Source of the DNA: Nitrospira sp.
GTDB taxonomy: Bacteria > Nitrospirota > Nitrospiria > Nitrospirales > Nitrospiraceae
NCBI GenBank assembly: GCA_024998565.1
Contig: JACOEM010000015.1
Span: 1-64,000, forward strand
Direction of reading: 5' to 3'
Length of the DNA stretch: 64,000 bases
Positions 3,502-37,504 of this stretch are shown here, in pieces; position 1 is the stretch's first letter; the number at the start of each line of letters is the position of its first letter. The position numbers and the translations under genes were made by a program. The notes below the pieces were generated by a model, which was not told the DNA's origin, did no database searches, and was given only the letters and a program-made list of their open reading frames with translations.

Positions 3502-3642
3502 TTGACACCGCTCTCGTAGCCCTATAGGGTGAACCGATGACGTACTGAGCCACGCCGGCTTTCTCCTTTCGCGCGCACGTTCATTCCCTCCCTCACTCCC
3601 TGCGCGTGCGAGTCCCAAGTCTTCGCCGCTTCGACGCCACAG
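3502..3642 (+). promoter_or_regulatory. Promoter/leader repeat, copy 1
   Basis: First of three related elements (others at 7198-7330 and 10114-10243). TTGACA at 3502 is followed exactly 21 bases later by GTGAA, with TATAGG just before it, so the 5' edge looks like a promoter. The next ~115 bases share ATGACGT, TGAGCCACGCCG, a pyrimidine-rich stretch with CCTCC/CCTC runs, and TCTTCGCCGCTTC.ACGCCA with the other copies. It precedes the micro-membrane protein genes by about 110 nt. Confidence 0.65.
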
Positions 3643-3672
3643 AACAAGAGTCCAGCGATGGTAGGCCCGCTG

Positions 3673-3693
3673 TGATCGGTCATTGACCGATCA
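3673..3693. repeat. Perfect 8-bp inverted repeat
   Basis: TGATCGGT and ACCGATCA are separated by 5 bases, between leader copy 1 and the first small gene. It could be an operator or the base of a hairpin in the leader RNA; there is no T-tract to make it a clear terminator. Confidence 0.5.
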
Positions 3694-3755
3694 GGCGATC
3701 TACTCAGGGCGGAGTCTTTTACTTAAGGCAAGATTGCGCAGCATGGGAGGTTGTC

Positions 3756-3842
3756 ATGTATCAAATTTGGACACTCATCGGAATCATGGTCTTCACGTGG
3801 GCTGTTGCGATGTGGGCGAGTTACTCGGACGGCACTGCGTAG
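3756..3842 (+). CDS. Micro-membrane protein, 28 aa
   Basis: A 28-residue ORF beginning MYQIWTLIGIMVFTW and ending YSDGTA. It has a Shine-Dalgarno GGGAGG five bases before the ATG. Residues about 4-20 form one transmembrane helix with a short polar tail. The size and shape recall small accessory subunits of terminal oxidases (CydX/CcoQ type), but no sequence motif proves this and no oxidase gene is nearby. It is the first gene after leader copy 1. Confidence 0.6.
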   Translation: MYQIWTLIGIMVFTWAVAMWASYSDGTA

Positions 3843-3918
3843 ACAGACGATTCGAGTTACGAGTGCTCTTGAGGTCTTCTGCCGACCGGCAGGGATCTGA
3901 TGCCAAATGGAGGATATC

Positions 3919-4056
3919 ATGATGGCGCAGACGGTAGTGTTCTGGGCCTCACACAATCTGTTTACGGTCGCGACGGTCTGCTTCGGTGCTGCCATGCTGA
4001 GCGTCATGCTGTACACCTACCTGCATGATTATGTGCTGGTGGTGAAGGGGCGCTAG
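3919..4056 (+). CDS. Micro-membrane protein, 45 aa
   Basis: A 45-residue ORF starting MMAQTVVFWASHNLF and ending LVVKGR, preceded by GGAGG with a 5-base spacer. Residues about 15-36 form one transmembrane helix, followed by a basic C-terminus, so the positive-inside rule places the C-terminus in the cytoplasm. It lies 76 nt after the 28-residue gene in the same direction. Function is unknown; the tandem arrangement suggests that both belong to one small membrane complex. Confidence 0.6.
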   Translation: MMAQTVVFWASHNLFTVATVCFGAAMLSVMLYTYLHDYVLVVKGR

Positions 4057-4103
4057 CCTGCTATTGTAAGTTACACGGTTTCCTAATGGGGAGGTTTCAT
4101 CCC

Positions 4104-4391
4104 ATGCGTATGCATCTAATAATCACCACGAGAGTATTGAGTCTGTTTCTGGCAACCGCTTGGTTGCTTGCCGTCTCACTGACCGTCCAGGCCTCGGAAC
4201 AGAAACCCGTTGTGACCGTCGCGCCGGTCAAGTCCGTTGCGGTGGCTTCCGGCGCCGTCGAGGATACTCTGCCTATGTGCCTGACGAGAATTCCTCAGGG
4301 AGCGACACCAGGGCAACGGTTGGTTGCTGAACAGAGTTGCCAGCGAGACGAATCCGATCGAGCATCCATGCGGAATGTTCCTGGACGGTAG
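4104..4391 (+). CDS. Small exported hypothetical protein
   Basis: A 95-residue product starting MRMHLIITTR. GGGGAGG at 4088-4094 decides for the ATG at 4104 over the upstream 4086. A signal peptide (hydrophobic residues about 11-28, SLTVQA cleavage region) predicts a periplasmic mature protein of about 65 residues. That protein carries two cysteines (in PMCLTRIPQG and EQSCQRDES) that could form a disulfide. No family was recognised. It belongs to the run of small genes after leader copy 1. Confidence 0.65.
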   Translation: MRMHLIITTRVLSLFLATAWLLAVSLTVQASEQKPVVTVAPVKSVAVASGAVEDTLPMCLTRIPQGATPGQRLVAEQSCQRDESDRASMRNVPGR

Positions 4392-4530
4392 CCTGATCGT
4401 CTTCCATACTGCCTGCGTATGGATGTGGCCGGGTGCGGTGTGCCGGCTGTGCACGGGGCAGGTGGTAGCGGCCGTTTTTCCATGGTGCCGGGCTATGTTG
4501 AAGGCTAAGCAATGCAGGAAGGATGACGGT

Positions 4531-4827
4531 ATGCGTATGGAACATCGAGTTCGTTCAAGATCCGCAGGTCGGCCTGGTGCCGTCGAGGAGCGAATACTGG
4601 CAAGGGCGAGTGAGACGCCTGCGGGAGTCGGTCGAAATATGCTTCTCGATATCAATAGGGCTGAGATTTCTCGACTCAAGTCGCTGACCGGAATCGGCGA
4701 ACATTATGCGAAGAAGATCGTGGAAGGGCGGCCTTACCATCATCGAGAAGAGTTGCTGACCAAAGAGATTTTGCCGGAATACATCTACGGCAGAATCATG
4801 GATCGACTGGTGGCAAGCCAGTCTTAG
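4531..4827 (+). CDS. Helix-hairpin-helix protein (ComEA-like domain)
   Basis: A 98-residue protein whose C-terminal half reads LLDINRAEISRLKSLTGIGE followed by HYAKKIVEGRPYHHREEL. This is the helix-hairpin-helix pattern of ComEA/DUF655-type domains, with the GIG hairpin at about residues 54-56; such domains usually bind DNA backbone non-specifically. The ATG at 4531 is preceded by AAGGA. The N-terminal part is basic and shows no signal peptide, unlike ComEA itself, so a cytoplasmic protein is more likely. The target is unknown. Confidence 0.7.
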   Translation: MRMEHRVRSRSAGRPGAVEERILARASETPAGVGRNMLLDINRAEISRLKSLTGIGEHYAKKIVEGRPYHHREELLTKEILPEYIYGRIMDRLVASQS

Positions 4828-4956
4828 GATTTAAGGGATGGGGTGATGTGCCTGGCATCGGATGCCTCGCGCGAGATGGCCATCCGGTATGGAATAACCA
4901 GGTTGTCCTCTCTCATGAATTGGACGGGTGGCTCGAATGACCGAAGGAACGACTGC

Positions 4957-5634
4957 ATGACGGACGACAGCAGGATAGCAGGGGCGGCGAGAAGGTTCTG
5001 GCTATGTCAGGTATCTTGGCGGGGCATGGCCCTCGTAGCAGCCATCAGTCTGCTGATGGGCATCGTGCAGGCCACGGCCGCTTGGTCCGAGCAGGGTCCG
5101 ACCGAGGCCGTGAAGGGGACCGTCTCCGAGCTGCTCTCAATCCTCAAGGAGCTCAAAGACCCGACTCGATCCGAGGCGCGGCGTTGGGAAATCGAACAGG
5201 TCATTCGGCAGCATGTGCATTACGAAGACATGGCCAAGCGGTCTCTGGGAACATCCTGGGGGCAACTGAGTGATGTGGCCCGCCGGGAGTATGTCGGGCT
5301 CTTTGTCCAGCTGCTTCGCGATGCGCTTGCGAACCGGATGGTGGAGTATTCCGGTGAACGGATCAGCTATCTCTCGGAACAACGGGAGCGCACGTTCGCG
5401 CAGGTCAAAACGCGGCTGGTCGGGAACAAGGTCGACACCTTCATCGACTTTCGTTTGGTCAGTCAGGACGGACGCTGGCTGGTCTACGACGCAGTTTTGG
5501 ACGGGGGAAGCTTGGTCGCGAGTTACCATGCGCAGTTTGCGAGCATCATTCGCGATGCCTCCTGTGCGCAGTTGATGGAGCGAATTAAAGAGAAGACGCT
5601 GGTCGTGAAATTATTTGAGAAGAGCGGGTCGTGA
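4957..5634 (+). CDS. mlaC: MlaC-family periplasmic phospholipid-binding protein, copy 1
   Basis: A 225-residue MlaC/Ttg2D family protein. These proteins ferry phospholipids through the periplasm to or from the MlaFEDB complex. The start at 4957 follows GAAGGA; a longer frame to 4843 lacks a site. A basic N-terminus and hydrophobic segment (MALVAAISLLMGIVQ) form a signal sequence or anchor ending near ATAAWSEQ. The family region includes YEDMAKRSLG, EYVGLFVQLLRDAL and GRWLVYDAVLDGGSLVASYHAQF. It is paralogous to 27498-28145. The transporter genes themselves (mlaEFD) are 37 kb away. Confidence 0.88.
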   Translation: MTDDSRIAGAARRFWLCQVSWRGMALVAAISLLMGIVQATAAWSEQGPTEAVKGTVSELLSILKELKDPTRSEARRWEIEQVIRQHVHYEDMAKRSLGTSWGQLSDVARREYVGLFVQLLRDALANRMVEYSGERISYLSEQRERTFAQVKTRLVGNKVDTFIDFRLVSQDGRWLVYDAVLDGGSLVASYHAQFASIIRDASCAQLMERIKEKTLVVKLFEKSGS

Positions 5635-5688
5635 GGCGAGGGCGCAATGGCACGATCACGAGCGGTCATGTCCCCGGGAGAGAGCGCA

Positions 5689-5877
5689 ATGAGATGTCCG
5701 CGTTGTTATGGTCCGATGATGATGATCAAGATGAAGGACATCGTCAGCGGTACGCTGGCGTACGGCTGGGGCTGCCGGCAATGTGGTGCCGTCATTGATT
5801 CACTGATCGATATTCACCGCCAGTGGCATCTGGAGCCCCGTGCGACCTGGGCGCATCTGGCTGTCGCCGCCTGCTAG
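5689..5877 (+). CDS. Small zinc-ribbon protein
   Basis: A 62-residue protein starting MRCPRCYGPM. CPRC near the N-terminus and CRQC about 28 residues later form a four-cysteine zinc ribbon. The middle (IVSGTLAYGWGCRQCGAVID) fits the knuckle-loop-knuckle pattern. The ATG at 5689 with GGGAG eight bases upstream is preferred over the start at 5647. It follows mlaC within 55 nt. The partner or nucleic-acid target is unknown. Confidence 0.65.
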   Translation: MRCPRCYGPMMMIKMKDIVSGTLAYGWGCRQCGAVIDSLIDIHRQWHLEPRATWAHLAVAAC

Positions 5878-5981
5878 GTCATGCAGTTACTTCTCCCTGT
5901 TTTCATAGGTTCGCCTAATCGGTTGGGGCGCCCGATGAGCGGAATTCATTTCTGGTCTCAGGAAGAGTGAAGGAGTGTGTC

Positions 5982-6149
5982 ATGTTGCACGCCGCGTTGA
6001 CTTCTCTCGCGCTTGGCCTCCTGGTTTGGGGGCTCAACTGGACCGGGCTCGCCGAGTTGCCGACTCAGGTCTATTGGGTCTTTACCGTGGGGGGAATGCT
6101 GTTGATGCTGATCCACGTTGCGACAAGGCGACCGGCCCGCGTGTGGTAG
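5982..6149 (+). CDS. Small two-helix membrane protein
   Basis: A 55-residue protein, MLHAALTSLALG to RRPARVW. Two hydrophobic segments (about 5-23 and 33-50) joined by a short loop with LAELPTQ suggest a helical hairpin in the membrane with both ends in the cytoplasm. AGGAG stands 7 bases before the ATG at 5982, favouring it over the GTG at 5967. No family was recognised. It is the third micro-membrane protein of this cluster. Confidence 0.6.
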   Translation: MLHAALTSLALGLLVWGLNWTGLAELPTQVYWVFTVGGMLLMLIHVATRRPARVW

Positions 6150-6162
6150 GGGGGCCATCATT

Positions 6163-6754
6163 ATGCGACTCCGCGATGCATGCATGATAAGCGCTGTGCT
6201 GGGAATTGGTGCGCCCTGCTTCAGTGAGGCCGAAGCTGCGAGGGAGTGGGCGCCGCAGGAGGTTGCGGCAATTCTCGCGCAGTCGTATGGGCAGCTGCTC
6301 ATGCGACCGATGGGGATGGAGCCAAGTTCGCTTCAGAAGAACGAGGCGGACCAACAACGGTATATGGTGCAGTCCGGCTATGCGTTGCAGTTGGCAAAAG
6401 GGGAGAAAAGTGTGAAGCAGATTGTCGAGGCGATCGCCCTATCATCGGAATTTAACGCCAAGTGGATAACTCCCCACATGGGAACTGCGCAGACCGGATC
6501 GGCCCCTGGAGTACCGCCCGTGGCGGGCCCCGGAAAAGGCCATCGATAGCCTGTACTGTGCGTTGTTAGGCCGGCGTGTGGATAGTGCGTCGTTGGCCAG
6601 CGCTCGCAAGGATTTGGTGAGTTCCGGCTTTGAACGGGTGATCCGGGACGTGATCGACGGGAAGGAATACCGAAACCGGTTCGGTGACACCAAAGTGCCT
6701 CAGGTGAGCAGTGAGAAGCAGGCGGCAGTCGGTTGCCCGCAAGTGGCTCCGTAA
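6163..6754 (+). pseudogene. Exported DUF4214-like protein, interrupted by a frameshift
   Basis: Frame 1 runs 6163-6549 from MRLRDACMIS with a signal peptide (FSEAEAA region). It encodes one helical unit, SYGQLLMRPM ... KQIVEAIALSSEFNAKW, of the type seen in DUF4214 and phycobilisome-linker-like proteins. Near 6470 the homology passes to the +1 frame, which reads LEYRPWRAPEKAIDSLYCAL, then LGRRVDSASL and VIDGKEYRNRFG, a second copy of the same unit, ending at 6754. Together they would make a protein of about 197 residues. Either one base is inserted near 6470 or the sequence has an error; a CCC-C slip at the site is possible but unproven. Confidence 0.65.
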
Positions 6755-6846
6755 CAGTGGTGTCGCGCAGCAGGCTCAGGATTCACTAGCGCAGGTGGCT
6801 TGGACGGGACGGCAATAACCTCAGTGAAGGTGGGGGAGAAGCACGG

Positions 6847-7035
6847 ATGAGTATGACGCCGGAAGAACGTATCGCAATTATGACAAAGGCGATCAATCAA
6901 GCCATCAAGGTGATGGGGGATCGTTTCGGGTCGACAGAGGAAGATGTGGCGCGAGCTATCCAAGGCCTGAAGGCCTCAATGCAGACGGCACCGCAGGAGA
7001 AGCCAGTGCCAGTCGGGGCCGCCACTCAGGCCTAA
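6847..7035 (+). CDS. Small hypothetical protein
   Basis: A 62-residue protein starting MSMTPEERIAIMTKAI, mostly helical (residues about 4-45), with a disordered Ala/Pro/Gln tail. A GGGGGAG stands upstream of the ATG, somewhat far away (about 10 bases). It is the last gene before leader copy 2. No family was recognised. The sequence resembles small regulatory or chaperone-like helical proteins only in general character. Confidence 0.5.
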   Translation: MSMTPEERIAIMTKAINQAIKVMGDRFGSTEEDVARAIQGLKASMQTAPQEKPVPVGAATQA

Positions 7036-7197
7036 GAGCTGCGGTGAAGCCTCGCCGGGCCCATTCTCTGATCGGTGAGGGAGCCATGTGGTTCGGCGAT
7101 GTTCCGATGTCTCTCGTCGTTGGGAGCATAGGTTTCATGTGTACTCCCTTGCTGTCTCCCGGCACGAGTCAACCTACGGACTAGGCCTCAATATCGC

Positions 7198-7330
7198 TTG
7201 ACTCCGATCGCCATAGCGCTTAGCGTGAAGGTATGACGTCTTTAGCTCCGCCGACTGTTCTCTCCCTCGCGCTTCGAGCCTCCATCCCGCGCGACTGATC
7301 GTCCGGTCTCCGCCGCTTTTTACGCCAGAG
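7198..7330 (+). promoter_or_regulatory. Promoter/leader repeat, copy 2
   Basis: Related to the elements at 3502 and 10114. TTGACT at 7198, then exactly 21 bases, then GTGAA; next TATGACGTCTT, TTAGCTCCGCCGACTGT, GAGCCTCCATCC, and GGTCTCCGCCGCTTTTTACGCC. It ends about 130 nt before the A-type Fe-S carrier gene and presumably drives that gene and perhaps the two OFOR beta subunits. Confidence 0.65.
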
Positions 7331-7463
7331 TGCCCTGCACTGACCGATGATGCCGTCTTCGTGAACGGAGCGATTGTCGCTTCCGGCGAGGAGCGGTGTC
7401 GTGACCAGCAGTTCCATCCGACACCATTATCCGTTTCATATAGCAGTACAAGGGAGCACCAGT

Positions 7464-7784
7464 ATGATTACCATCACGGCAACGGCTGAAGAGAAAATTC
7501 GCGAGTTGATGCTGGAAGAAAAAGATACGCTCGGGCTGCGTGTATATGTAAAAGGCGGGGGCTGCCACGGCTATCAATATGGAATGGCGTTCGAGTCGAA
7601 GATGAGCGACGACGATACGGTGATTGAAAAGGGTGATGTGAAAGTGATCATGGATTCGCAAAGCGCTCCGCTGTTGAGCGGCTGCGAAGTCGATTATGTT
7701 GACAGCGTGCAGGGCTCGGGCTTTGCGATCAAGAATCCACAAGCCAAGACGACCTGCGGATGCGGTAGCTCATTCAGCGCCTAA
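7464..7784 (+). CDS. A-type Fe-S cluster carrier (HesB/IscA/ErpA family)
   Basis: A 106-residue protein of the usual family length that receives or carries Fe-S clusters and passes them to target enzymes. The three conserved cysteines are present: Cys34 in GGGCHGYQYG and Cys98/Cys100 in the C-terminal TTCGCGSSF. ATG 7464 follows GGGAG by 8 bases. It stands between leader copy 2 and two ferredoxin-dependent oxidoreductase subunits, whose holoenzymes carry several 4Fe-4S clusters. A role in maturing these enzymes is a reasonable inference. Confidence 0.92.
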   Translation: MITITATAEEKIRELMLEEKDTLGLRVYVKGGGCHGYQYGMAFESKMSDDDTVIEKGDVKVIMDSQSAPLLSGCEVDYVDSVQGSGFAIKNPQAKTTCGCGSSFSA

Positions 7785-7809
7785 TCCCCGCGCGCGTCGC
7801 TGTCTTTGC

Positions 7810-7970
7810 ATGATCGTCACTGTGACTGAAGGCGCACCATTTCAAGAAGTGAGCCTGTCATCGCCGGTCCGCGAGTGTGTGGCGGGATGACCATGCCTCC
7901 GGAGATTATCGTGGAAGAGATTAAGCGTGCCCTCGGGGTGCGTTCCGGCACGCTCGCCGGTCGCGGGTGA
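7810..7970 (+). other. Two overlapping micro-ORFs, coding status uncertain
   Basis: 7810-7890 encodes 26 residues (MIVTVTEGAPF ... RECVAG) and overlaps 7887-7970, 27 residues (MTMPPEIIVEEIKRAL ... LAGRG), through ATGA. Neither has a strong Shine-Dalgarno sequence. Together they could be a coupled pair, remains of a frameshifted small gene, or non-coding. Confidence 0.25.
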
Positions 7971-8052
7971 AGTGTAGCGGATCAGAGAATGGGAACGGGC
8001 TTGGTACTGTAAGCAGCACATTGACGCTCAGCAGGGCTGAGAGGAGATAGAT

Positions 8053-8949
8053 ATGAGCAAGGAACGCATCAAGATTTCGCCGGAGTTGTACGACATCATG
8101 CCGTCGGACTACCAGGACCTTGTCAGCAGCGCCACATACGGCAAGGAAGACCGGGGATGGAAGGACATCGGTACCTCCAAGGAACTCATCGAGCAGCATT
8201 CCCTGTGTGCCGGGTGTCCTGAATCCATGGCGTTTCGATATATTCTGGCGTCGCTTCCCAACCCCGAAGACACGGTCATGGTCGGCTCGACCGGTTGCAC
8301 GAGTCTCGTGTTTCCTATGGTGGCCGTCCACAACATCCACTCCCTGTTCGGCAACCAGAATGCGATCGCATCGGGGCTCAAACGGGCTCTGAGTGTGCGT
8401 TTTCCCGATCGCGTGAAGGATGTGGTCGTGTTGGCGGGAGACGGCGCGACGGTGGACATCGGTTTGGACATGACCCTGCAGGCCTGGTTTCGGCAAGAAA
8501 AATTCACGACCATCTGCTTCGATAACGAACTCTACGCCAACACCGGCGGGCAGGAGAGCGGTCTGATGCAGAAGGGGTTCGTGGCCAAAATGGCGCCGGT
8601 CGGAAAGCTGTTCGATAAAGTCCGGTTGCCTGAAATTGCCCGGGAGTCCGGCTGTCACTACGTGGTCAATTGCACGGTCAGCAAGCCCTCTCTGGTCGAG
8701 AAGGTAGTCCGCAACGCGGTGCTGATCGCCCGGGAAATCGGCCCGACCTATCTGCAACTCTATACGCCCTGCATTCTGGAGATCGGCAAGAACAGCATGG
8801 AGGGTCTGCAGGAAATGCGGGACTCCGAGAAGCCCACGGAACGGTTTGCCTTCAAAGAATATATCAGCGAGCCGGCGAAGCAGCTCCTGGCGGAGCGTGA
8901 TGCCAAGGCCAAAGAAAAGAAAGCCGCTGCCAAGCAATTGGTGTCGTAA
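8053..8949 (+). CDS. 2-oxoacid:ferredoxin oxidoreductase, beta subunit (TPP-binding), copy 1
   Basis: A 298-residue protein. OFOR beta subunits bind thiamine pyrophosphate and a 4Fe-4S cluster and catalyse oxidative decarboxylation of, or reductive CO2 fixation onto, acyl-CoA (pyruvate or 2-oxoglutarate synthase in the reductive TCA cycle). CAGC at 52-55 supplies cluster cysteines, GDGATVDIG from residue 129 is the TPP/Mg motif, and FDNELYANTGGQ (156-167) completes it. The start follows GAGGAG. The C-terminus is a Lys/Ala-rich tail. No alpha, gamma or delta subunit lies in the window, so the partners must be encoded elsewhere. Substrate cannot be told from sequence. Confidence 0.93.
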   Translation: MSKERIKISPELYDIMPSDYQDLVSSATYGKEDRGWKDIGTSKELIEQHSLCAGCPESMAFRYILASLPNPEDTVMVGSTGCTSLVFPMVAVHNIHSLFGNQNAIASGLKRALSVRFPDRVKDVVVLAGDGATVDIGLDMTLQAWFRQEKFTTICFDNELYANTGGQESGLMQKGFVAKMAPVGKLFDKVRLPEIARESGCHYVVNCTVSKPSLVEKVVRNAVLIAREIGPTYLQLYTPCILEIGKNSMEGLQEMRDSEKPTERFAFKEYISEPAKQLLAERDAKAKEKKAAAKQLVS

Positions 8950-9001
8950 GCGGGAGGATTATCACCGCCGCTTCCGCGGCAACGAGAGAGCGAGGTTTCA
9001 G

Positions 9002-9895
9002 ATGAGTCTTGATTATGTAAAGTTTACTCCTGGTTTCGAGCAGTTCATGCCGAAAGAATATCGGGATATGGTCGAACATGGACCGTTCGGAAAAAAGACG
9101 ACGGTGTCGCAGATGGGCAGCTTCAAGGAAATCCTCGAGGAGCACCCGATGTGTGCCGGCTGCGCCATGACCCTGTTCATCCGGTTGGCGATTATTGCCT
9201 TTCCGAATCCAGAGGATACTATTACCGTCGGGACGGCGGGCTGCGGCAGATTGGCCATCTCGCAAGCCGCGATCCCGTTCGTGTACGGGAACTACGGCGA
9301 CCAGAATGGAGTCGCGAGCGGGTTATCGCGCGGACTCCGGCTCCGTTTCGGCGACAAGCCGAAAGATGTGGTCGTAATCGCGGGTGATGGAGGAACCGCC
9401 GACATCGGGTTCCAGCAGGTGCTGCATTCCTGGTTCCGAAAGGAACGGTTTACGACCATCATGCTGGACAACGAAGTGTATGGTAATACCGGTGGACAAG
9501 AAAGCGGCATGACGACCAGAGGCGCCGTGCTGAAGATGGCTCCGCTTGGAAAGAAGTTTGAAAAGATGGACATGGTCACGATGGCTAAAGTCGCTGGCTG
9601 TTCTTATATCGCCACGGTCGTGCCGAACAATCCGCGGCGGGTGGAAAGCGTCATCAAAAAGGCTGTGCTGATCGCCCGGGACATCGGCCCGACCTATATT
9701 CAAGCCTATACCTCATGCAACATCGAGTACGCGATTCCGACCGACAAGGTGATGGAAGACGCCAAGACCGTGGAAGACGATCGTTACAAATTTACCGAGT
9801 ATGTCAGCGACGAAGCGAAGGCGTATCTGGCCGAGCGCTATGGCTACAAGGAATTTATGCCGAAGGCCGTCCCTGCTTCCGTCACGACGGCCTGA
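9002..9895 (+). CDS. 2-oxoacid:ferredoxin oxidoreductase, beta subunit (TPP-binding), copy 2
   Basis: A 297-residue paralogue of the preceding gene, starting 52 nt after it. CAGC is again near residue 54, AGDGGTADIG and LDNEVYGNTGGQESG form the TPP site, and the end (VSDEAKAYLAERYGY) matches the other copy before the tails diverge. Substitutions around the active site (AGCAMTLFIR against AGCPESMAFR, TAGCGRLAIS against STGCTSLVFP) suggest different substrates or partners, for example pyruvate against 2-oxoglutarate; this is inference. The ATG at 9002 is preceded by GAGG. Confidence 0.93.
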   Translation: MSLDYVKFTPGFEQFMPKEYRDMVEHGPFGKKTTVSQMGSFKEILEEHPMCAGCAMTLFIRLAIIAFPNPEDTITVGTAGCGRLAISQAAIPFVYGNYGDQNGVASGLSRGLRLRFGDKPKDVVVIAGDGGTADIGFQQVLHSWFRKERFTTIMLDNEVYGNTGGQESGMTTRGAVLKMAPLGKKFEKMDMVTMAKVAGCSYIATVVPNNPRRVESVIKKAVLIARDIGPTYIQAYTSCNIEYAIPTDKVMEDAKTVEDDRYKFTEYVSDEAKAYLAERYGYKEFMPKAVPASVTTA

Positions 9896-10113
9896 GGGAG
9901 TCGAAGCAGAGGCCAAGTTGGTTTCCGGGCTTACTCTGGCGGGCAGGAGCCGAACCTCCTGCCCGACCCGTTCTCGAGGCATGGGCTGCAATCGATGGCA
10001 GCTGGTCCAAATCCATCACACTGCCCCACACGAGCGGTTCTCTCGAGTCTTGCCAGAAAATAATTAAGCCGCGTGGAATCAAGGGCTTGTCTCATCGACC
10101 TTCGCAGCCTCCA

Positions 10114-10243
10114 TTGACAGAGCCGGTCGTGCACTGTAGGGTGAGGCATGACGTCTTGAGCCACGCCGACTGTCCCATCTTGCGCGCCTCCTTCCATCCT
10201 TCGCGCGTCTGATTCCCCGGTCTTCGCCGCTTCTACGCCAGAG
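10114..10243 (+). promoter_or_regulatory. Promoter/leader repeat, copy 3
   Basis: TTGACA at 10114, 21 bases, then GTGAG, with TGTAGG just before it. The rest keeps CATGACGTCTTGAGCCACGC, CGACTGT, a GCGCCTCCTTCC run and CGGTCTTCGCCGCTTCTACG followed by CCAGAG. The element is followed at 10254-10267 by a short hairpin (AGACC, ACCA, GGTCT) and by the CsbD-like gene at 10340. Confidence 0.65.
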
Positions 10244-10339
10244 TTTCCATCTCAGACCACCAGGTCTCGGCATGCGTTCGCGCGTGTCGGCCCTTACAAC
10301 GGTGTGGCGCGATGCTCGCCACCGATCAAGGAGAATGCA

Positions 10340-10582
10340 ATGACACAGGAGCAATTCCAACAGTTCTGGCTGCAACTTAAGGCTCCCCTCAAGGCCAACT
10401 GGGAGAAGATTACGGAAAGCGATCTCGGTGAAATCCAGGGCAGCCTGGTGAAGTTCGGTGATGTGCTGCAGAAGCGTTATGGTGAGGGACACAAGGACGA
10501 AGTCAGTCTGTGGGCTGATCGTCGGCATGCGCATTGGAGCGGAAATTACATCGGATACAAGGATCCGAAACCAACGGCTTAA
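10340..10582 (+). CDS. CsbD-like stress protein
   Basis: An 80-residue protein starting MTQEQFQQFWLQLK. The N-terminal 50 residues (LKANWEKITESDLGEIQG, GDVLQKRYGEG) match the CsbD-like pattern of short charged helical proteins that bacteria make under general stress. The C-terminal 30 residues (HAHWSGNYIGYKDPKPTA) are an extension. AAGGAG precedes the ATG at 10340 by 6 bases. Placement behind leader copy 3 suggests stress-dependent expression of the whole leader family. Confidence 0.8.
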   Translation: MTQEQFQQFWLQLKAPLKANWEKITESDLGEIQGSLVKFGDVLQKRYGEGHKDEVSLWADRRHAHWSGNYIGYKDPKPTA

Positions 10583-17777: not shown

Positions 17778-18129
17778 CGTACACTCCTTTCGGCGAACAA
17801 CAGGATGGCGATGTCCAGGCCATCAAACTGGTTGCAGTGGGTCAGGCATGCGAATCGGACCACTGCGTTGCCCATTTCCTTGTCCGCTGAATGGGGGAAA
17901 TGGGCCGTAGGAGGAGCGTAGTTAAGGAAGCGATCGCGCCGTGATAGGGGGCGGAAACGCGAAGCGTGGGATTTCGCTCGAGGCTCGTACGGTTCAGCAA
18001 TTTATCATGCTTTCCATAGTCCGGTCAAATGAGCTGAATGGTGGATGCATGACCTGCGTTGGCTGAAATACCGTATCGAGTGAAATCCGGGCCGGCAGAT
18101 TTCACCGTCAATCCTGCAATCTCTAGGGG
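17778..18129. other. Intergenic region with an inverted repeat
   Basis: About 350 bases without a supported gene. At 18080-18105 GTGAAATC and GATTTCAC face each other across 10 bases, just after the stop of the sigma-54 activator gene; this could be a terminator stem or an operator. Confidence 0.5.
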
Positions 18130-37180: not shown

Positions 37181-37504
37181 TTAGAAGCGGCTGCGTCCGC
37201 CGCGGTTTTCACCGCCGCCGAACCGTCCACCCCCGCCGCCGCCACCGGAGCGAGCTTCTTGCGGCTTCGCTTCATTGACGGTGAGCTGCCGGCCATCCAT
37301 GTCCGAGCCGTTCAACGCCGTGATGGCTGCCTTCGCTTCTTCCGCAGTGGACATTTCCACGAAGCCGAAGCCGCGCGATTGTCCGGTGAACTTGTCGGTG
37401 ATCACGCGCGCCGATTCAACGGTGCCGTGCGCGGAAAACAAGTTGCTCAGTTGCGATTCAGTGGCAGCATACGGTAATCCGCCGACATACAATTTGTTAC
37501 CCAT
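37181..37504 (-). CDS. RRM-type RNA-binding protein with glycine-rich tail
   Basis: A 107-residue protein with one RNA recognition motif: RNP2 as KLYVGGLPYA (about 4-13) and RNP1 as SRGFGFVEMS (about 43-52). The last 25 residues are Gly/Arg-rich (GGGGGGGRFGGGENRGG). This is the form of cyanobacterial and other bacterial Rbp proteins, often cold-induced, that bind single-stranded RNA. AAGGAGAG precedes the ATG. It has a long upstream region and its own terminator. Confidence 0.95.
   Translation of the reverse strand: MGNKLYVGGLPYAATESQLSNLFSAHGTVESARVITDKFTGQSRGFGFVEMSTAEEAKAAITALNGSDMDGRQLTVNEAKPQEARSGGGGGGGRFGGGENRGGRSRF

Follow-up and report, generated by a model that had tools for sequence, protein, structure and literature searches.

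A conserved structured leader RNA family ahead of small stress-type and accessory protein genes in the Nitrospiria

The window, i.e. the complete stretch of 64,000 nucleotides analysed here (Nitrospira sp., contig JACOEM010000015.1, positions 1 to 64,000), contains three copies of a unit that consists of a promoter and a structured leader RNA element (3502-3642, 7198-7330 and 10114-10243). The element apparently represents a real and conserved family of leader RNAs that has not been described before. We consider it very probable that the members are cis-acting structured leaders of a regulon. On balance we also favour the fuller reading, in which the leader stands at the 5' end of each mRNA of a regulon that comprises small stress-type and accessory proteins of the Nitrospiria, and acts via stability or translation together with a trans-acting factor; the mechanistic part of it, stability and a factor, is put forward tentatively.

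The repeated element, its promoters and its fold

The three copies that a sequence-only reading had pointed out were recovered by alignment and by repeat search, with a mean column identity of 67%, and the blocks ATGACGT..CGCCGACT and GTCTTCGCCGCTT..ACGCCA were retrieved independently by a repeat search of the window. The common promoter reads TTGAC(A/T)-N17-TAGSGT and is followed by a spacer of 5-6 nt and an element of about 96-105 nt. The exact 21-base gap between TTGAC(A/T) and GTGA, reported in the same reading, is present in all three copies (3508-3528, 7204-7224 and 10120-10140) and is composed of the 17-nt spacer and bases 1-4 of the -10 hexamer. GTGA itself had been taken for the start site; as the -10 hexamer extends into it, we place the predicted transcription start 7-8 nt further downstream, at or near the A of ATGACGT (Table 1). 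The location of the unit ahead of a first gene stands, with revised limits for the RNA (Table 1) and distances between element end and first start codon of 114, 134 and 97 nt for copies 1, 2 and 3, respectively. A generic promoter scan of the window did not call the element promoters, because TAGSGT is a weak -10 box.

The repeat is not a product of chance, since BLAST with a single window copy revealed that the genome holds a fourth one (G000:C9:45220-45315, minus strand) and since covariance model R2 (cmsearch) matched the window copies with E ≤1e-19 (scores in Table 1), the same copies having belonged to the training set of the model. The fourth copy precedes genes for DUF1328-type micro-membrane, CsbD-like and BON-domain proteins (domain types confirmed on representatives). 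A weak covariance match at 17901-17995 (minus strand; 17.7 bits, E 0.017) is possibly a decayed or divergent copy.

The exact element adopts a single long hairpin structure: UG.CGU...GAGC..CG..GACUG....AUC..(U)GCGCGC-loop-GCGCG(A)..GAU....CRGUC..CG..GCUU..ACG.CA. It has helices of about 5, 4, 2, 5, 3 and 6 pairs, the basal pair of which involves element nucleotide 2, mostly symmetric internal loops (2x2, 2x2, 4x4 and 2x2) and a pyrimidine-rich terminal loop. The internal loops are 96.5% pyrimidine (19 loop columns, with one adjoining column, A in 73 of 128 copies, left out) and the terminal loop 82%, versus 66% for the whole element; few unpaired parts are as strongly conserved as the 4x4 loop (UCCY/UCYC). 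Nearly all of the 32 copies from the genus of the window adopt the long hairpin when folded singly, and the exact elements are more stable than dinucleotide shuffles, with a fold z between -1.0 and -3.0 (mean of -2.4 for 133 exact elements).

A sequence-only MAFFT alignment of the 32 genus copies has 96.6% of its cells paired, versus 31.7-51.8% when the partners are slid by 1-3 columns, and contains 27 compensatory cells versus 10 in shuffles; double changes occur in 4 pairs only, no more than in shuffles. In a larger alignment that was fitted to the structure (A3; 133 copies, 13 genera), 92.5% of the cells are paired and compensatory change is found in 22 of 25 pairs, including the basal pair at nucleotide 2, with 105 compensatory cells versus 25 ± 4 in shuffles (0 of 500 as high). 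Typical exchanges are GACUG/CGGUC to GGCUU/AAGUC and AUC/GAU to CUU/GAG. The covariance models R1/R2 were built from the alignments A2/A3.

Family-wide, an exact TTGAC is found upstream in 117 of 155 copies, at a modal distance of 35 nt before the element, and the 38 copies without it include some with other promoter types. The -10 hexamers (TAGGGT, CAGGGT, TAGCGT, TAGCAT and others) end 5-6 nt before the element in most copies, which puts element nucleotide 1 at about +1; this nucleotide is a purine in 100 of the 132 copies. Some copies have an extended -10 (TGTGGTAGACTG) and others an upstream class ending in ...CTGACGTT that directly abuts the element; at least three promoter types occur with it. 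The description as a promoter plus a transcribed structured leader thus holds for both parts, but not for the promoter as the constant one: since promoter identity varies and the RNA does not, the RNA is the shared unit, and the joining of one leader RNA to several promoter types argues for control after transcription start.

Two further observations concern the promoters. At L123, L138, L148, L117, L124 and L146, mostly before a 'MLPKHPGYP' secreted-protein gene, a different upstream sequence is present (ATGAAAGTT..GGAACG...TTGNTT), which may be the promoter of another sigma factor. Elements also occur in back-to-back pairs, about 100-250 nt apart and each facing its own gene (L142, L088, L121, L155, L181, L108 and L130); these pairs are divergent promoters that both carry the leader RNA.

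Distribution and associated genes

With R1, the element was found in 21 of the 29 genomes of the window's genus and in 140 of the 175 genomes of its family (18 of 22 genera, 1-10 copies per genome). R2 found it in 165 of the 236 genomes of the order (families f1, f2 and f4) and in 97 of the 396 genomes of a phylum-wide sample, the sole addition being family f5 of the same class (two genomes); no match was obtained in the other families of this sample, which serve as a negative control. A scan of about 85,000 species with the exact core pattern yielded 93 stretches, and the titles among the 80 of these that were listed all read Nitrospira, Nitrospirae or Nitrospiraceae, but for one 'uncultured Nitrosospira' record (isolate CMX) that is probably a mislabel; the carriers include the cultured organism N. 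moscoviensis. No family in Rfam 15 matches the window copies (to E=5) or the elements in 10 diverse loci (to E=1), and a literature search, outside of which most subscription journals lay, found no paper that describes the element or links Nitrospira to such an RNA.

A conserved same-strand open reading frame (ORF) is located within about 1.3 kb downstream of 143 of the 156 copies, and 131 of the 156 are followed by a member of one of 18 recurrent protein families, at a median distance of 128 nt (5-95% range 45-268 nt). The gene starts are heuristic and the automatic first-ORF caller sometimes chose spurious starts; the family counts derive from a family-specific pass. The tagged genes are unrelated and small, and lie behind a spacer of 30-270 nt. 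They encode: the secreted 'AVEDTL..C' protein (19), CsbD-like MxQEQF proteins (18), a HesB/IscA Fe-S carrier that leads ferredoxin-oxidoreductase genes (12), DUF1328 proteins (12), CxRCxGLM zinc-ribbon proteins (12), the 'MLPKHPGYP' secreted protein (10) and the RPxTxRI, RIPDGT and VEPxxTFxDGSQL families (7 each), next to micro-membrane proteins, PF05532 CsbD, BON and FmdB-type zinc-ribbon proteins and one RRM protein. Pfam confirms PF01521, PF07043, PF05532, PF04972, PF09723, PF00076 and PF02775, and gives no family for 10 of the 17 small tagged proteins that were scanned. In families f2, f4 and f5, which include another order, the same protein families are tagged with the same promoter layout, and the partnership between element and genes is therefore old. 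A shared regulon, which had been suggested from the window together with a covariance search of Nitrospira genomes as a check, is supported by that search: the copies precede recurrent genes in many genomes and show compensatory changes.

Several intergenic and partly palindromic copies per genome could also be expected from a spreading repeat (REP/ERIC-like) that carries a promoter and has no leader function. The strict orientation, the fixed promoter distance, the gene partners conserved across orders, the pair-by-pair compensatory change and the occurrence of the same RNA under different promoters make this extremely improbable, and a mobile intergenic repeat (REP/ERIC/MITE) was rejected on account of the orientation, the distance to the promoter and the conserved partners.

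The Fe-S carrier illustrates what kind of gene is tagged. A housekeeping carrier, about 86% identical and without element, is present in every genus genome and the element-bearing paralog in 17 of them only, from which we conclude that the element marks the accessory copy, presumably a conditional one. The 8 genus genomes in which the element is absent (G006, G007, G010, G012, G013, G015, G021 and G027) also lack this paralog. Between the Fe-S carrier and the first TPP subunit of the window, positions 7855-7969 (plus strand) hold the remains of a ferredoxin-oxidoreductase alpha-subunit C-terminus (GPRVCGGMTMPPEIIVEEIKRALG...); the alpha C-terminus closes a longer interval in L290, L293 and L297-L300 and is deleted in other genus members. 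Induction of a ferredoxin oxidoreductase is described in the low-oxygen proteome of N. marina (PMC8115632), where it concerns a different cluster, which is reported to be missing from almost all other Nitrospira; it was not used as evidence.

Table 1. Promoter boxes, leader RNA elements and downstream genes in the window (R2 scores refer to copies that belonged to the training set of the model)
Feature	Position	Strand	Basis
-35 box TTGACA, copy 1	3502..3507	+	sequence; position agrees with the 117/155 copies having exact TTGAC
-10 box TAGGGT, copy 1	3525..3530	+	17-nt spacer; ends 6 nt before element
Leader RNA element, copy 1; predicted +1 at 3537	3537..3641	+	R2 78.5 bits; fold; covariation
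First gene after copy 1: micro-membrane protein MYQIWTLIGIMVFTW...	3756..3842	+	family recurs behind element in distant lineages
Second micro-membrane protein MAQTVVFWASHN...	3922..4056	+	sequence
Secreted 'AVEDTL..C' protein	4086..4391	+	other copies have members of this family as first gene
-35 box TTGACT, copy 2	7198..7203	+	sequence
-10 box TAGCGT, copy 2	7221..7226	+	sequence; 17-nt spacer
Leader RNA element, copy 2; predicted +1 at 7233	7233..7329	+	R2 81.6 bits; fold
HesB/IscA-type Fe-S carrier (PF01521), accessory paralog	7464..7784	+	Pfam; genus comparison
2-oxoacid:ferredoxin oxidoreductase-type TPP subunit (PF02775)	8053..8949	+	Pfam
Second TPP-domain subunit (PF02775)	9002..9895	+	Pfam
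-35 box TTGACA, copy 3	10114..10119	+	sequence
-10 box TAGGGT, copy 3	10137..10142	+	sequence; 17-nt spacer
Leader RNA element, copy 3; predicted +1 at 10148	10148..10242	+	R2 95.7 bits; fold
CsbD-like small protein MTQEQFQQFWLQLKAPL...	10340..10582	+	named by resemblance, no Pfam match; orthologs carry element genus-wide

The leaders downstream of the elements contain two other structures: a near-perfect palindrome, TGATCGGTCATTGACCGATCA, at 3673-3693 between copy 1 and its gene, a possible operator or RNA hairpin, and an AGACC-ACCA-GGTCT hairpin at 10254-10267, 3' of copy 3, whose conservation extends to many csbD leaders within the genus.

Possible modes of action

We propose that, once the promoter fires, a hairpin of about 96 nt would form at the extreme 5' end of the transcript and would act on its own mRNA after transcription start. 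Being a 5'-terminal stem-loop, it would most likely control mRNA lifetime and/or translation. The conservation of the pyrimidine loops suggests that the hairpin is read by a protein or nuclease; these loops may be what a shared trans-acting factor (a protein or ribonuclease) recognises, and this factor would make the control by the leader conditional.

Several points weigh against this proposal. Alignment A3 was fitted to the structure and its pair counts therefore lean towards it. The fold z of the window copies falls to about 0 when the native flanks are added, probably by pairing of the pyrimidine strands with purine-rich flanks, and as the gain in stability vanishes, the hairpin is only marginally or moderately stable without a partner. 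The +1 position is a prediction from promoter spacing, and the 'stress' theme of the genes is a putative one, taken from the names of distant relatives. The absence of the element from 8 of the 29 genus genomes implies that it is dispensable at the genus level. The RRM-type RNA-binding protein was rejected as a co-occurring partner: RRM proteins are encoded by each of the 29 genus genomes, carriers and non-carriers of the element alike, and their co-occurrence is therefore uninformative. The genome has three RRM genes, among them one in the window (37283-37492, minus strand), and in L147 an RRM gene lies 31 nt behind the element, which is an anecdote.

The pairing of CCUCC loops with ribosome binding sites, considered in the sequence-only reading, was evaluated as a switch on the leader's own gene, in which the pyrimidine loops (CUCC, UCCU, CUUCC) would pair with the own Shine-Dalgarno (SD) sequence and folding of the hairpin, under a stabilising signal, would free the ribosome binding site and turn translation on. 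The loops of the window copies indeed hold CUCCUU, CCCUCCC and CUCC, complementary to AAGGAG, GGGAGG and GGGAG, and one clade shows the two-sided change GCACTC/GAGTGC to GCATTC/GAATGC (L094 versus L095/L096/L104). The longest complementary run is 4.89 versus 4.79 ± 0.10 in permuted pairs and the duplex energy -9.7 versus -9.3 ± 0.2, a weak difference in which the relatedness of the copies is not corrected for. The SD sequence is less accessible with the element (0.365) than with the spacer alone (0.425), but shuffled element letters occlude it slightly more (0.337) than the native ones. Moreover, the genus members L015 and L017 lost the complementary loop and kept AAAGGAG, and the spacer length varies widely. 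We therefore rejected such pairing as the principle of the family, the native values not being clearly above those of the permutation and shuffle tests, and regard the switch as unlikely; loop-SD pairing may be a local add-on.

The same low probability is given to a processing site, i.e. a long imperfect rod that serves as substrate for RNase III or another nuclease and whose conditional cleavage sets the mRNA level. Such a role, which overlaps with the explanation that we prefer, draws purely on analogy: 25 pairs with mismatch layers and conserved non-canonical loops suit a double-strand nuclease substrate, and the 5' position suits regulated decay.

No intrinsic terminator was called on the plus strand between element and gene for the three window copies, which bears on two other alternatives. 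An element acting at the level of transcription, by Rho-dependent or other attenuation or antitermination in which the hairpin would hide a Rho-loading site on its C-rich strand, would fit a pyrimidine-rich and C-rich leader that starts straight after the promoter and extends over 130-370 nt before the gene; as no terminator was found in the window leaders and the spacer sequences differ between operons, we judge it quite unlikely. Alternatively, the element itself could be the product, a trans-acting small RNA (sRNA) that is released by termination or processing and whose pyrimidine loops pair with SD sites of other mRNAs. Its own promoter, stable hairpin, anti-SD-like loop and several copies per genome are compatible with that, but an sRNA would not need to lie 30-270 nt before a conserved same-strand gene in nearly every copy, with the same families in distant lineages. 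We consider this very unlikely, and an sRNA with its own terminator was rejected on the terminator result for the window copies.

Two further candidates were discarded. A leader-peptide attenuator would require a conserved short ORF; the mini-ORF AUG-ACG-UNY-UGA at the 5' end has its stop at codon 4 in 48 of 133 copies (36%) and its ATG at nucleotides 1-3 in 53 of 133, and is absent from window copy 2 and from the deep branches. A CsrA/RsmA target leader should present GGA in hairpin loops, and the internal loops are almost exclusively pyrimidine.

Returning to the cis-acting leader with a trans-acting factor, a more far-reaching version can be formulated. The rod, in which nearly every unpaired layer is a pyrimidine-pyrimidine mismatch, might be read by a dedicated factor, or might sense protons or metal ions via its C-C and U-U mismatches, which would be a new principle of recognition. 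Placed interchangeably at the 5' ends of about 20 unrelated operons with different promoters, it might provide nitrite oxidisers and complete ammonia oxidisers with a lineage-wide system of stress control after transcription; we hold this to be rather improbable. Regulation by structured RNAs is scarcely documented for Nitrospira, which comprises the most widespread nitrite oxidisers as well as the comammox bacteria. The analysis provides a defined and searchable RNA family (R1/R2), a list of tagged genes, i.e. a candidate regulon of small proteins mostly left unnamed by annotation, and a single-hairpin target in the cultured N. moscoviensis. If the factor were found, a lineage-wide circuit of post-transcriptional control would become open to experiment.

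Comparison with known systems

The element shares features with four kinds of known RNA. As in the ROSE and FourU thermometers of small stress genes, a hairpin in the 5' untranslated region (UTR) precedes stress-type genes. Unlike these, the Nitrospira hairpin excludes the SD sequence and start codon and is followed by a variable spacer of 30-270 nt; a thermometer was rejected on these grounds, the start codon lying mostly 45-270 nt past the element. The orphan riboswitch-like leader motifs of the Weinberg/Breaker type are likewise conserved structured leaders confined to one phylum. The Nitrospira element differs from them in having no multi-branched aptamer and no metabolic theme, and in its many copies per genome; as regards an expression platform, no plus-strand terminator was called in the window leaders and the element changes SD accessibility only slightly. 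The C/U-rich sRNAs of alphaproteobacteria and staphylococci, with CCUCC/UCCC loops, have pyrimidine-rich loops complementary to SD sequences. The element loops are pyrimidine-rich and SD-complementary as well, but the element is fused to mRNAs and has no terminated sRNA architecture, and loop-SD pairing is not general in it.

A stem-loop that closes at transcript nucleotide 2 corresponds to the established layout of the 5'-terminal mRNA stabilisers (Emory et al. 1992, as cited in PMC7509114), with the vacA 5' stem-loop of H. pylori as an example (PMC4843948); stress-regulated 5' stem-loops have been reviewed (PMC7509114). Like the E. coli ompA 5' UTR and the vacA stem-loop, the Nitrospira hairpin is predicted to start no more than 1-2 nt from the 5' end, and the ribosome binding site lies outside of it, further 3'. 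Unlike these single-gene elements, it is conserved in sequence and structure before about 18 gene families and has conserved pyrimidine loops; a stabilising role is putative here. The family is notable for its combination of all-pyrimidine loops, 5'-terminal placement, independence of the promoter and a broad regulon of small proteins.

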